Below, piece after piece: positions 59,630-64,000 of a DNA stretch of 64,000 bases (position 1 is the first letter of the stretch; every line of letters starts with the position of its first letter). The translations under genes and the position numbers were made by a program. This DNA comes from Rhodanobacter sp. AS-Z3. GTDB taxonomy: Bacteria > Pseudomonadota > Gammaproteobacteria > Xanthomonadales > Rhodanobacteraceae. A model generated the notes under the pieces. It did no database searches. It worked only from the letters and a program-made list of their open reading frames with translations, and was not told the DNA's origin. The stretch spans positions 1,635,001 to 1,699,000 of the forward strand of contig NZ_CP119392.1 in assembly GCF_029224025.1 (NCBI RefSeq). The letters run 5' to 3'.

Positions 59630-62272
59630 ATGCCCGCGTCCATTGTTGCCTTGCCACCGCTGCCACGCCTGCCTGTGGCGGTGCCGCGTTCAGGCGTTGC
59701 TACCGAGGCGCGGCGTGCGCTGAGGCAGCTGCTGGGTGATGTTGACCGGGCCCTGGCTACCGCATTTCGTGATGGTGCTGACGCCACTGCACTGGCGCAT
59801 CGTCGTGGCGAATCGGTGGCGCGTGTCGTTGCTCACGTATGGATGGCCTGCCTGGGTGAGGTGGCTGGCGCCGCGCTGTTTGCGGTCGGTGGATTTGGCC
59901 GTGGTCTGCTGTTTCCCTGTTCCGACGTGGATCTGCTGGCGCTGGCCGAGGCGCCGGACCCGGCACGGCTGCGCGCGATTGAACAGTGCTTTGCCACCTT
60001 GTGGGATATCGGTCTGAAGGTCGGTCACGCGGTACGCGATCCTGCTCAGTGCCGCGCGCTTGCGGCGCAGGAAGCGAGTGTCTTCACCAGCCTGCTGGAC
60101 GCGCGTCGACTGGCGGGCGATCCGGAAATGGAAGGTGTGTTGCGCACCATCGTCGATGATCCGGGACTGTGGCCGCCGCGCGAGTATCTGGCCGCGCGAC
60201 TGGCCGAGCGCAATGCGCGGCATGCGCGTTACGACGACACGGCCTATAACCTCGAACCGAATCTGAAGGATGGCCCCGGCGGCTTGCGCACGCTCGATTC
60301 GCTGCGCTGGATGGGTCGTCGGCTGGCGCATGCCAATGACCTGGCCGACATGGTGACCGAAGGCTTGCTCGACCCTGCCGAACAAGCCGTTCTGGAAGAG
60401 TCCGAGGCGACCTTGCGCCGCTATCGCTATGCGCTGCATCTCGAAGCGGGCCGGCCCGAAGAGCGTTTGCTGTTCGACTATCAACGGGGGCTGGCCGAAC
60501 GACTGGGTTTCGAGGACGAACACGCGAAGAATCTCGGCGTCGAGCAGTTCATGCAGGGCTATTATCGCGCAGCCAGCCAGGTGGAACGGCTTGGTGTGCA
60601 GGTGGCCGAGCGCTTCGAGGAAATGCTGGAGTCACCCGGCGAGGCGCTACCCGTCGGCGAGGCGTTCGTGCGTTATGGATCGCGACTGGCGGCGATCGAT
60701 CCGCAATTGTTCATGCGACGCCCGGCCGCACTCGTGGAAATTTTTATTGCCCGGCTGGATCAGCCTGGCTTGGTCGGCTTCACCGCGGACACCATGCGCC
60801 GCATCCATCAGGCCACCGCCGTGCACGCGGACGCGCTGGCCGATGACCGCGAGGCGCTGGCGGCTTTTCTGCATCTGCTGCGTCGGGGTGCGCCCGCGGT
60901 GGAGGCATTGTGGCGAATGAATCGACACGGCTTGCTGGCGGCGATCCTGCCGGCTTTCGGCAAGGTGTTCGGGCGCATGCAGTACGACCTTTTCCATGTC
61001 TATACGGTCGACGAGCACACCTTGCGCGTGCTGCGCAACCTGGCGCGCTTTGCCGATCCGGCGGCGCAGAGTGAGTTTTCGCTGGGCTGCGAGATATGGG
61101 CCAGCCTGCCGACGCCTGAAGTGCTGCTGCTGGCCGGGTTGTTCCACGATATTGCCAAGGGACGCGGCGGCGATCACTCGATCTTGGGCGAGCAGGATGC
61201 GAGAGCATTCTGCAGCCGTCTTGGCTTGCCACCTGCCGATGTCGAACGGATTGCCTGGTTGGTACGCCACCACCTGCTGATGAGCACCACGGCACAACGC
61301 CAGGACATCACCGATCCTGACGTCGTGCATCGTTTTGCCGAGTTGGTGGTCAATCGCGAGCAGTTGGGCCAGCTCTACCTGTTGACCGTGGCGGACATCA
61401 TCGGCACCAGTCCGCGGCTGTGGAATGGCTGGAAGGACCGCCTGCTGGCTGACCTGTATACCGGCACTCGCTATGCGCTGCGCAGCGACGTGGAACTGCC
61501 TCGCGACATCGGCGAGCGTGTGCGCGATTGTTCCGAATATGCGCTGGCGCTGTTGCTGGATGAGGGACATGTCGAAGCAGAAGTGATTCGCGTGTGGGCG
61601 GGCTTTCCGCAACTGAGCTTCCTGCGCCACCGGCCCGAGCAGATCGCCTGGCAGACCGCGGCCATCCTCCATGCAAACGGCGCCGTGCCGTTGGTGGCCG
61701 TGCATCCGTTGTCGGTGCGCGGCAGTACCGAATTGTTTGTTTATACGCCCGACCGCGATGGTCTGTTCGCCACGGTGACCGCGGTGCTCGATCGCTTGCG
61801 TTTCTCGGTGATGGAGGCGCGCATTCTCAGTTCAACGACCGGCATGGCGCTGGATACTTTCCTGTTGCTCGACGCAGACAGCCAGCAGCCGGTAAGCCTG
61901 GCCCGCGCTGAGGAATTGCAGCAGCGGCTACAGCGTGCACTGGCACAGTCCACTGGCGTGCAGCCGAGCAAGCGCGGCATGTCGCGCCATCAGAAGCACT
62001 TCCAGATGACTCCGCGCATCAGCTTCCATGCGGCGGGTGATCGCACGCAACTGGCACTGATCGGTACGGATCGTCCGGGGTTGCTGGCCGCGGTGGCCCA
62101 GGTGATGTCGAGCGCGGGCGTGCGCGTGCACGATGCGCGCATTGCCACCTTCGGCGAGCGCGTGGAGGATTTCTTTCAGCTCACCGATCGGCACAATGCG
62201 CCGCTCAACGAGGCCGTGCAGCAGCGCTTGCTGCAGGCCTTGCTGGAACGCGTGGGGCCGGCGGCAGGTTGA
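59630..62272 (+). CDS. glnD: bifunctional PII uridylyltransferase/uridylyl-removing enzyme
   Basis: 880 residues. GlnD senses glutamine and modifies or demodifies PII. The nucleotidyltransferase motif GGFGRGLLFPCSDVDLL has the Mg ligands D99 and D101. The HD domain contains LFHDIAKGRGGDHS. Two ACT domains fill the C-terminus (from about 695 and 800; RDGLFATVTAVLDRL and RPGLLAAVAQVM). Next to map, as in E. coli. Confidence 0.96.
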   Translation: MPASIVALPPLPRLPVAVPRSGVATEARRALRQLLGDVDRALATAFRDGADATALAHRRGESVARVVAHVWMACLGEVAGAALFAVGGFGRGLLFPCSDVDLLALAEAPDPARLRAIEQCFATLWDIGLKVGHAVRDPAQCRALAAQEASVFTSLLDARRLAGDPEMEGVLRTIVDDPGLWPPREYLAARLAERNARHARYDDTAYNLEPNLKDGPGGLRTLDSLRWMGRRLAHANDLADMVTEGLLDPAEQAVLEESEATLRRYRYALHLEAGRPEERLLFDYQRGLAERLGFEDEHAKNLGVEQFMQGYYRAASQVERLGVQVAERFEEMLESPGEALPVGEAFVRYGSRLAAIDPQLFMRRPAALVEIFIARLDQPGLVGFTADTMRRIHQATAVHADALADDREALAAFLHLLRRGAPAVEALWRMNRHGLLAAILPAFGKVFGRMQYDLFHVYTVDEHTLRVLRNLARFADPAAQSEFSLGCEIWASLPTPEVLLLAGLFHDIAKGRGGDHSILGEQDARAFCSRLGLPPADVERIAWLVRHHLLMSTTAQRQDITDPDVVHRFAELVVNREQLGQLYLLTVADIIGTSPRLWNGWKDRLLADLYTGTRYALRSDVELPRDIGERVRDCSEYALALLLDEGHVEAEVIRVWAGFPQLSFLRHRPEQIAWQTAAILHANGAVPLVAVHPLSVRGSTELFVYTPDRDGLFATVTAVLDRLRFSVMEARILSSTTGMALDTFLLLDADSQQPVSLARAEELQQRLQRALAQSTGVQPSKRGMSRHQKHFQMTPRISFHAAGDRTQLALIGTDRPGLLAAVAQVMSSAGVRVHDARIATFGERVEDFFQLTDRHNAPLNEAVQQRLLQALLERVGPAAG

Positions 62273-62332
62273 GCAACCGCGCCCGCGCTATCATCCCGTT
62301 GCTGCACGCCGCAGTGGCCATTCGTTTCCTTC

Positions 62333-62782
62333 ATGACCTATCTGTTGATCAAGTCGTTGCACCTGCTGTTCGTTATCGCCTGGATGGCTACGGTGTTCTA
62401 CCTGCCGCGGATACTGGTGAATTTGTCCGAAAGTGCCGGTGAGCCCGCAGTGCAGGCGCGACTGCAATTGATGGGGCGACGTTTGTACAAGTTCGGCCAC
62501 AACATGTTCGGCATCGCCTTCGTGTTTGGACTGGCGCTGTGGCAGGGCTGGCGGGTGTTTCCGCAAAGCTTGCCGAACGTCAGCGCCGGCATGCACTGGA
62601 TCGACGCCAAGCTGACCCTGGTGGCGCTGCTGCTGGCTTATTTCATCTGGGCCGGGCGCCTGCTCAAGCGCAGCATGAAGGGTGTGGCGCTGCCGTCGTC
62701 AAAGGCGATGCGTTGGTTCAATGAGTTGCCGGTGCTGCTGTTGCTGGGTGTGCTCTGGCTGGTGATTGCCAAGCCGTTCTGA
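62333..62782 (+). CDS. HemJ/CopD-like membrane protein
   Basis: 149 residues with four hydrophobic segments. The N-terminal LIKSLHLLFVIAWMATVFYLPRILV with H10 matches the UPF0093/HemJ family, whose members oxidise protoporphyrinogen IX; some are annotated as CopD. Conserved HemJ-like features also include KLTLVALLLAYF. Function as HemJ is likely but not certain from sequence alone. Confidence 0.72.
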   Translation: MTYLLIKSLHLLFVIAWMATVFYLPRILVNLSESAGEPAVQARLQLMGRRLYKFGHNMFGIAFVFGLALWQGWRVFPQSLPNVSAGMHWIDAKLTLVALLLAYFIWAGRLLKRSMKGVALPSSKAMRWFNELPVLLLLGVLWLVIAKPF

Positions 62783-62858
62783 AGCCGTGATGTCCGCGCC
62801 GGATAACCCTCGGTATCGACCATGCGCCTGGGTCAAGCCGAGGCGTTGGCGGAGGGGA

Positions 62859-62887
62859 TTGACGGCAAATTTGGGCTAAACTAGCGT
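62859..62887 (+). promoter_or_regulatory. candidate thrS promoter
   Basis: -35 TTGACG (62859-62864), 17-bp spacer, -10 TAGCGT (62882-62887). Transcription from about 62894 would place the leader peptide and attenuator in the 5' leader of thrS. Confidence 0.5.
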
Positions 62888-62940
62888 TTCAGCAGCATCC
62901 ACAAGCCCAAGGTGGCCTGCGCGCAGGTCGAGTGTGTGAC

Positions 62941-62967
62941 ATGACGACTACCTGCTTGCACGGTTAA
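62941..62967 (+). CDS. thrS leader peptide MTTTCLHG
   Basis: Eight codons plus TAA. Codons 2-4 are ACG, ACT and ACC, three different Thr codons in a row. GAG (62930-62932) or AGG (62925-62927) may be the ribosome-binding site; a GTG at 62932 in frame could add three residues. A CCTGC/GCAGG palindrome precedes it. Such a Thr-rich leader fits attenuation by charged tRNA-Thr, logically matched to thrS, which encodes the enzyme that charges that tRNA. Confidence 0.7.
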   Translation: MTTTCLHG

Positions 62968-63018
62968 TCCACCGCGCCTTGTGTTGTTATTTTCAGAGAA
63001 GGGCGGACGCCCTTTTTT
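62958..63018 (+). promoter_or_regulatory. transcription attenuator of thrS (pause hairpin, antiterminator, terminator)
   Basis: Four segments: 1 (62958-62964, GCACGGT), 2 (62971-62980, ACCGCGCCTT), 3 (62999-63006, AAGGGCGG), 4 (63009-63014, GCCCTT). 1:2 forms a stem with one mismatch, overlapping the leader stop codon. 2:3 (CCGCgCCTT with AAGGGCGG, one bulged G) is the antiterminator. 3:4 with the loop GGAC, followed by T's to 63018, is the terminator. Stalling at the Thr codons frees segment 2; reaching the stop covers it. Confidence 0.7.
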
Positions 63019-63039
63019 GCTTTCCAGAGAATGGTTCCC

Positions 63040-64000
63040 ATGATTGAAATTACGCTACCCGACGGCAGCAAACGGCCGTTCGATCACCCCGTTACCGTGC
63101 AAGACGTGGCCGCTTCCATCGGCGCCGGTCTGGCCAAGGCGACGTTGGCTGGCAAGGTCGACGACAAGCTGGTCGATGCCGGCTACCTGATCGAACATGA
63201 TGCCAGCCTGCAGATCGTCACCGAGAAAAGCCCGGAGGCGCTGGAAATCCTGCGCCACTCCACGGCCCATCTGATGGGTCAGGCGGTGCAGCGGCTGTTC
63301 CCCGGCGCACAGGTCACGATCGGTCCGGTAATCGACAACGGGTTCTTCTACGACTTTGCCTATGAGCGTCCGTTTACCCCGGATGACCTACCGAAGATCG
63401 AGGCGGAAATGCTGAAAATCGTCGCCGAGCAGTTGCCGGTGACCCGCAGCGTGAAATCGCGCGACGAGGCGGTGGCGTTCTTTCGTGGCATGGGCGAGAA
63501 CTACAAGGCCGAGATCATCGAAGGCATTCCGGCCAACGAAGACCTGTCGCTGTACTCGCAGGGCGAATTCACCGACCTGTGCCGCGGCCCGCATGTGCCA
63601 AACACCGGCAAGCTGCACTCATTCAAGCTGATGAAGGTAGCTGGTGCCTATTGGCGCGGCGATTCGAACAACGCAATGCTCAGCCGCATCTACGGCACCG
63701 CGTGGCTCAACGACAAAGACCTGAAGGCGCACCTGTTCCAACTGGAAGAGGCCGAGAAGCGCGACCATCGCAAAATCGGCAAGCAGCTCGACCTGTTTCA
63801 CCAGCAGGAAGAAAGTCCGGGCATGGTGTTCTGGCACCCCAACGGCTGGGCGATCTGGCAGCAGGTCGAGCAGTACATGCGCGGTGTCTACAAAAAGAGT
63901 GGCTATCAGGAAGTGCGTTGTCCGATGGTGCTGGATGTGTCGCTGTGGAAGCGTTCCGGCCATTGGGACAATTACGCCGAGAACATGTTCTTCACCGAGT
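63040..64000 (+). CDS. thrS: threonine-tRNA ligase, N-terminal part
   Basis: The window ends within the gene; 320 residues are visible from ATG 63040 ([20 protein letters not shown]). It charges tRNA-Thr. The TGS domain spans about residues 1-62, then the editing domain with [11 protein letters not shown] and DLCRGPHVP (the Cys-His site), and the start of the catalytic domain ([15 protein letters not shown]). An ATG at 63031 is three codons upstream; AGAGA precedes both. Downstream infC-rpmI-rplT-pheST are expected but outside the window. Confidence 0.95.

Follow-up and report, generated by a model that had tools for sequence, protein, structure and literature searches.

A predicted threonine leader-peptide attenuator upstream of thrS in Rhodanobacter and related genomes

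Leader-peptide attenuators control the trp, his and thr operons of Escherichia coli and Salmonella, and in the trp leader the ribosome-binding site is known to pair with a downstream segment. The E. coli thrS gene carries a translational operator through which it is autoregulated by its own enzyme: a hairpin lies within the split ribosome-binding site, and translation of thrS is blocked when the enzyme binds to anticodon-like loops. A 2010 survey by Lopatovskaya, Seliverstov and Lyubetsky, cited in PMC4833913, is said to cover classical attenuators of amino-acid and aminoacyl-tRNA operons, and it may already predict thrS attenuators. In the open-licence literature, a passage of PMC1183508 describes attenuation of trp, his and thr by leader peptides. 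Self-regulation of E. coli threonyl-tRNA synthetase (ThrRS) is mentioned in PMC2965389; in the parts of that paper considered here this is the only thrS-related passage, and none concerns Xanthomonas or Burkholderia thrS. A part of PMC8079986 reports a predicted thrL leader peptide upstream of thrS in Streptomyces lividans TK24.

We analysed a 64,000-nt stretch of the Rhodanobacter sp. AS-Z3 genome (NZ_CP119392.1, positions 1,635,001 to 1,699,000; hereafter the window), for which an original prediction had proposed a threonine leader-peptide attenuator of thrS. The comparisons below support that proposal: the Thr codons and the terminator are conserved, and the segment after the leader stop codon has alternative partners. 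On this sequence evidence we consider it likely that the thrS 5' leader is a ribosome-mediated transcription attenuator.

Like the trp, his and thr attenuators, the leader has a short open reading frame (ORF) that contains codons for the amino acid to be sensed; predicted alternative pairings and an intrinsic terminator follow ahead of the gene. It differs from them in that it would control a tRNA synthetase operon, has only eight codons with two or three Thr codons, Thr being fixed at positions 3 and 4, and contains a covarying hairpin between the Shine–Dalgarno sequence (SD) and the start codon; the SD region seems to serve as its first pairing strand (region 1). That an SD pairs is not unprecedented, since pairing of the ribosome-binding site is known from the trp leader. 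The thrS leader would follow the same principle as the trp, his and thr attenuators, as a variant of it. With the E. coli thrS operator it shares the predicted regulation of thrS from the 5' leader and a hairpin inside a split ribosome-binding site. Unlike that operator, the leader in the window has no supported anticodon-like hairpin, and the ribosome-binding site is that of the leader peptide. The S. lividans peptide, as described in the part of PMC8079986 considered, likewise has two adjacent Thr residues (MKRVRPFLETTPGFVPAR) and lies upstream of thrS, but it is leaderless and has 18 residues, and its authors reported a hairpin without a U-rich terminator; it comes from another phylum, and we saw no similarity to the leader in the window. 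The suggestion that such a mechanism may be undescribed thus does not wholly hold for thrS in general, as a leader peptide is annotated in that species; for Proteobacteria, we recognised no description of a thrS leader-peptide attenuator in the open-licence literature, and the 2010 survey may contain one.

The thrS locus and the spread of its leader domain

In the window, the leader lies between a UPF0093 family gene (62333–62782) and thrS, which is followed on its 3' side by infC, rpmI, rplT, pheS and pheT. The best named match in the search is a Rhodanobacter metagenome-assembled genome (MAG), with 95% identity over the query. From the UPF0093 gene towards thrS, the elements are TTGACG-17-TAGCGT, the SD-like AAGGTGG with a hairpin after it, then the ORF MTTTCLHG and finally a terminator with a U-tail (Table 1). 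The promoter, leader ORF, antiterminator pairing and U-tailed terminator are all found in the window as originally described. A promoter pattern (TTGAC-type, 16–18 nt, TANNNT) occurs 42–70 nt upstream of the conserved 5' domain in 60/108 leaders. A generic promoter and terminator scan of the window listed neither the leader promoter nor the leader terminator; it may have missed the latter because the predicted stem extends into the U-run.

Table 1. Elements of the thrS leader and their positions in the window
Feature	Positions	Strand	Details
Predicted sigma-70-type promoter	62859..62887	+	TTGACG 62859–62864, 17 nt, TAGCGT 62882–62887
Putative region 1: SD-like AAGGTGG (62909–62915) and 5' flank	62891..62917	+	Can pair with, and coevolves with, region 2
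Conserved hairpin separating the SD from the leader start	62914..62929	+	Covariation, fold in the window
Invariant linker GAGYGTGYGAC, 5' of the start codon	62930..62940	+	Column counts
Leader ORF MTTTCLHG	62941..62967	+	Thr codons 62944–62952
Putative region 2: post-stop segment	62968..62988	+	Candidate partners: region 1, or region 3 via 62972–62980
Regions 3 and 4: predicted intrinsic terminator	62999..63018	+	Stem 62999–63004 with 63009–63014, U-run to 63018
thrS (threonyl-tRNA synthetase)	63040..64000	+	Continues past the window end; in-frame ATG also at 63031

A covariance model of the 5' domain and the first codons, built from 36 sequences of alignment A1, matched 205 of 226 genomes of the host family, in 25 of its 26 genera (E up to 0.01). 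Four of the 205 matches fall between E 0.001 and 0.01, and two of these genomes (G071 and G076) carry another leader type, so the true family count is slightly under 205. Within the host order, 243 of 348 genomes matched (E up to 0.001); they belong to two families, apart from a single weak match in another family. The class sample gave eight matches in 370 genomes, five in the two families and three weak; the weak class-level matches L232–L234 have no GACATG core and were rejected as copies of the domain. Named carriers include Rhodanobacter, Dyella, Luteibacter, Thermomonas, Luteimonas, Lysobacter, Rehaibacterium and a Pseudoxanthomonas MAG. The comparison covered loci named Rhodanobacter and Dyella, in a set with no locus named Xanthomonas.

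The host genome itself has one strong model match, at thrS, the next having an E value of 0.03. A pattern search allowing up to one mismatch returned eight hits, against ten for a reversed control pattern, and further copies in this genome were rejected. The same applies to second matches in G237 and G246, which sit within long reading frames. Four weak second matches were removed by hand from 116 model matches. Of the 112 that were left, 106 have a thrS-like start further downstream, as identified by a script. Removal of L232–L234 left 109 leaders, 108 of them distinct. N given for each test below is the number of sequences left after redundancy filters.

Leader ORF, start domain and terminator

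The eight-codon ORF with three successive Thr codons that had been placed at 62941–62967 is present exactly there (ATG ACG ACT ACC TGC TTG CAC GGT TAA). Conservation of the Thr codons in relatives, proposed as a check, was borne out: among the 108 distinct leaders, codon 3 encodes Thr in every case (ACT in 103) and codon 4 in 97, by all four synonyms (ACC 68, ACG 22, ACT 4, ACA 3). Codon 2 is free to vary. Leaders contain two Thr codons in 60 cases, three in 39, one in eight and four in one; these counts make two at positions 3 and 4 the rule, and the three adjacent codons originally described hold for the window but not as a general feature. The ORF has eight codons in 96/108 leaders. In an amino-acid control, Thr was the enriched residue, with 95/108 leaders passing the Thr rule and 25 passing for the next residue, Arg. 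A short, predicted translatable ORF with codons of the regulated amino acid is therefore found across the 108 leaders, as in known attenuators. The Thr fraction is nevertheless low (2–3 of 8 leader codons), and according to an argument in a passage of PMC1183508 a low fraction of regulatory codons lowers attenuator sensitivity. This low fraction, together with the 8/108 leaders that have one Thr codon, counts against the attenuator reading. Two Rhodanobacter-type leaders upstream of thrS, L002 and L299 (genome G039), look decayed: neither has a recognisable start codon or Thr codons, and the U-tailed terminator is still there.

The most conserved part of the leader, absent from the original prediction, is a structured domain at 62907–62940, with AGGTGG, a covarying hairpin and GAGYGTGYGAC, followed by the ATG. 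In this order, an SD-like sequence is set apart from the leader start by hairpin and linker; should AAGGTGG be the SD, both would lie between it and its start codon. GGTGG, the linker letters AG, GTG and GAC, and the following ATG are invariant in the 97 distinct rows of alignment A4, which contains matches picked by score from 100 of the fetched sources and leaves out divergent leaders or leaders with GGCGG for GGTGG (including L010, L029 and L108; at least one leader outside, L108, has GGCGG). Six of the eight hairpin pairs change on both sides in these 97 rows, a level reached in 0/500 shuffles, and slid versions of the hairpin fail the test, the alignment itself having been fitted to the hairpin structure. 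Taken alone, the hairpin in the window is not unusually stable (z +0.26 for 62909–62943). A cmscan of 62000–64000 against Rfam 15 (E up to 1) found nothing in the leader and one chance match to another family; the T-box model had no match in that interval. The Rfam threonine operon leader matched neither the window stretch nor ten related loci (E up to 0.1).

An invariant structured domain before an aminoacyl-tRNA synthetase gene could be a binding site that lets ThrRS regulate either the leader or thrS itself in the manner of the E. coli operator, and the linker contains AGYGTG, where CGU or UGU would be Thr anticodons. We regard such binding as very improbable. The hairpin loop is variable across the alignment, and the conserved Thr codons would be left unexplained. 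An anticodon-mimic hairpin in the linker, which would present AGYGTG, was rejected as it lacks pairs that change on both sides and its U-A pair is missing in 70/97 rows.

The terminator predicted just before thrS is also present: AAGGGC pairs with GCCCTT, and the six T occupy 63013–63018, the first two still belonging to the stem. The folding energy of these 16 nt is −8.4 kcal/mol (z −2.6). In 106/108 leaders a terminator was found no more than 110 nt from the leader stop (104/108 by a stricter rule), so that an intrinsic terminator between leader ORF and gene is nearly always found. In ribosome-free minimum-energy folds it forms in 79/106 leaders. In two leaders, L204 and L213, both the 5' domain and the Thr codons are conserved, yet a search of 110 nt after the stop found no terminator with a U-tail.

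The terminator might merely end upstream transcription, with the short ORF being incidental. A tRNA gene precedes the leader in some relatives (L008, L013, L015), and the promoter pattern is missing from many leaders, as would suit this explanation; conservation of the Thr codons, the ORF length and the start domain argues against it. So does a class-wide set of 60 genomes, which is not a random sample since it consists mostly of the better matches among 138 genomes with a thrS match: a terminator was found in 26 and a Thr ORF before the terminator in two. The latter count indicates that the scoring does not create such leaders everywhere. We give this explanation hardly any weight.

Competing partners of the post-stop segment

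An antiterminator had been predicted between 62972–62980 and 62999–63006. This pairing is the minimum-energy fold of 62970–63010 in the window (−12.5 kcal/mol), though its z against shuffles is only −1.55. Coevolution was tested by swapping segments between genomes, with sequence relatedness partly controlled. For region 2 with region 3 (2:3), swap tests gave z −2.5 (N 51), −3.2 (N 91) and −1.8 (N 54), whereas swaps between nearest relatives gave 43 better and 30 worse (P 0.22); the coevolution of this stem that had been proposed as a check is thus present at a modest level in the former and not seen in the latter. Per-sequence shuffles did not set the pairing apart (mean z −0.5, with 6% of 106 leaders ranking at 0.05 or better; mean z −0.1 in a second run), and GCCAC-type leaders alone gave no significant result (P 0.12). 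Within the leader type of the window, the sequence comparisons lend the antiterminator modest support. The alternative fold of the window has −12.5 kcal/mol with a ribosome placed at Thr codon 4 and −0.9 with one at the stop. The means for 106 leaders are −11.2 and −6.6, and −12.4 for the terminator; these folds use assumed ribosome edges, and a stalled ribosome leaves more RNA exposed by its position alone.

A hairpin over the stop codon (62958–62977) exists in the window as predicted (−6.4 kcal/mol, z −3.0), but is not conserved: its mean z is +0.5 in 106 leaders, with z below −1 in 3/106. It is therefore a local feature, and we rejected it as a conserved protector. The leader ORF showed no coevolution with region 2 (z +0.8; null also with nearest relatives). 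Both results speak against an arrangement that places region 1 within the coding part of the leader or across its stop and leaves the SD domain to serve leader translation alone. Classical attenuators are built in that way, and the strength of the stop hairpin in the window would accord with it; we consider it unlikely here.

In the window, region 2 can pair with the SD region (1:2), as CACAAG (62900–62905) with 62978–62983 and GGTGG (62911–62915) with 62969–62973. The SD and its flanks pair better with region 2 of their own genome than with swapped segments (z −4.7, N 90), also within two subsets, and nearest-relative swaps agree (48 better, 29 worse, 9 ties, P 0.002). Seven control windows (upstream, hairpin and linker, ORF, past the terminator) gave z −1.0 to +1.3 against region 2. 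A reversed region 1 gave z −2.0, so part of the 1:2 signal is composition or relatedness. The region 1 window was set to include the SD after an SD-less upstream window had failed, the 5'-proximal stretch without the SD being not significant against region 2, and was then compared with the other windows. Against the terminator arm, the 5'-proximal stretch, run as a control, gave P 0.01 at N 12, and the SD region P 0.058 in the nearest-relative test. In ribosome-free minimum-energy folds the SD pairs with region 2 in 55/106 leaders. A competing 1:2 pairing is thus found, and what competes for the antiterminator strand in a conserved way seems to be the SD region of the leader.

As this best supported long-range pairing involves the leader SD, the leader peptide could instead act on translation or RNA stability, by SD sequestration or re-initiation, with termination minor. 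The two leaders without a U-tailed terminator would fit. Against this stand the terminator kept between leader stop and thrS in nearly all leaders and the many leaders in which thrS starts >100 nt past the leader stop, and we hold such action to be most improbable.

Comparison of genomes supports four parts of the attenuator. These are the Thr-containing ORF, the terminator, the hairpin that separates SD and start codon, and coevolution of the SD region with the post-stop segment. The transcript start, the ribosome positions, the direction of the response and any effect on expression we infer as follows. Transcription would begin near 62894, and a ribosome would start on the eight-codon ORF. 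With ample Thr-tRNA, it would pass codons 3 and 4, reach the stop and partly mask region 2; after its release, region 2 could pair back onto the leader SD region (1:2) and the terminator (3:4) would form. With scarce Thr-tRNA, the ribosome would stall at the Thr codons and region 2 would pair with the 5' arm of the terminator (2:3), so that RNA polymerase would read into thrS and probably infC-rpmI-rplT-pheS-pheT. The device probably turns thrS up when threonine-loaded tRNA runs short.

A more specific version, which we put forward tentatively and hold to be possible rather than probable, makes the leader's own SD, split from the start codon by the conserved hairpin, the switch strand. A stalled ribosome would hold the SD and leave region 2 free for antitermination; once it moved on, the freed SD would capture region 2, shut the leader and let the terminator form. 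Since the Thr codons are fixed at positions 3 and 4, a stalled ribosome would still be near the initiation site, close enough to hold the SD, and might keep it across the hairpin.

Related leaders and biological meaning

Among loci L020–L080, mostly from Betaproteobacteria, a Thr leader ORF precedes a terminator in 35/59, typically encoding MTPRTTT. For 32 of these 35 leaders (L046, L054 and L068 were left out), swap tests alone gave z −5.6 for 2:3 (N 27) and z −5.0 when region 2 was tested with the 30 nt that precede the leader start (N 28). Elsewhere in the order, 18/29 loci score for a Thr leader ORF ahead of a terminator; this set includes three type-1 loci (L306, L321, L322), and the ORF scored in L015 overlaps a tRNA region and is not its leader. 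Across otherwise unlike thrS leaders, an Arg codon just before a Thr codon, CGA-AC(T/C/G), recurs, as in MTPRTTT, MSTRT, MTRT and FRTTT (e.g., L021, L163, L301, L306, L314).

Some other Xanthomonadales have an unlike thrS leader with the same layout (GGAG, hairpin, ATCACC, ATGACGCGAAC). This second conserved leader type (type 3; GGAG, hairpin, ATCACC, ATGACGCG) shows a covarying hairpin between SD and start codon and was seen at L301–L305, L307, L311, L315–L317, L319, L320, L012, L015 and L038. Fourteen of the 15 matches entered the alignment, as L307 repeats L038. All 98 of 98 cells of the hairpin pair, and three of seven pairs change on both sides, with 2/500 shuffles as high; the count of further pair types in these 14 sequences was not above shuffles. 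Betaproteobacteria and other Xanthomonadales carry leaders of similar logic and unlike sequence. tRNA genes were observed upstream of thrS in L008, L013, L015, L031, L037, L046, L061 and L022 (Xanthomonadales and Betaproteobacteria); because several sit directly before the leader, the two may be transcribed together.

It appears that charged tRNA is sensed by a leader peptide, and not by enzyme autoregulation of the E. coli type, in two families of Xanthomonadales and also in many Betaproteobacteria, whose leader sequences are unlike. The operon behind the thrS leader also contains the genes for IF3, L35, L20 and PheRS. As a structured RNA element, the conserved split ribosome-binding site has no Rfam match here, and it allows a direct test of whether a leader's own SD can serve as the switch strand of an attenuator.
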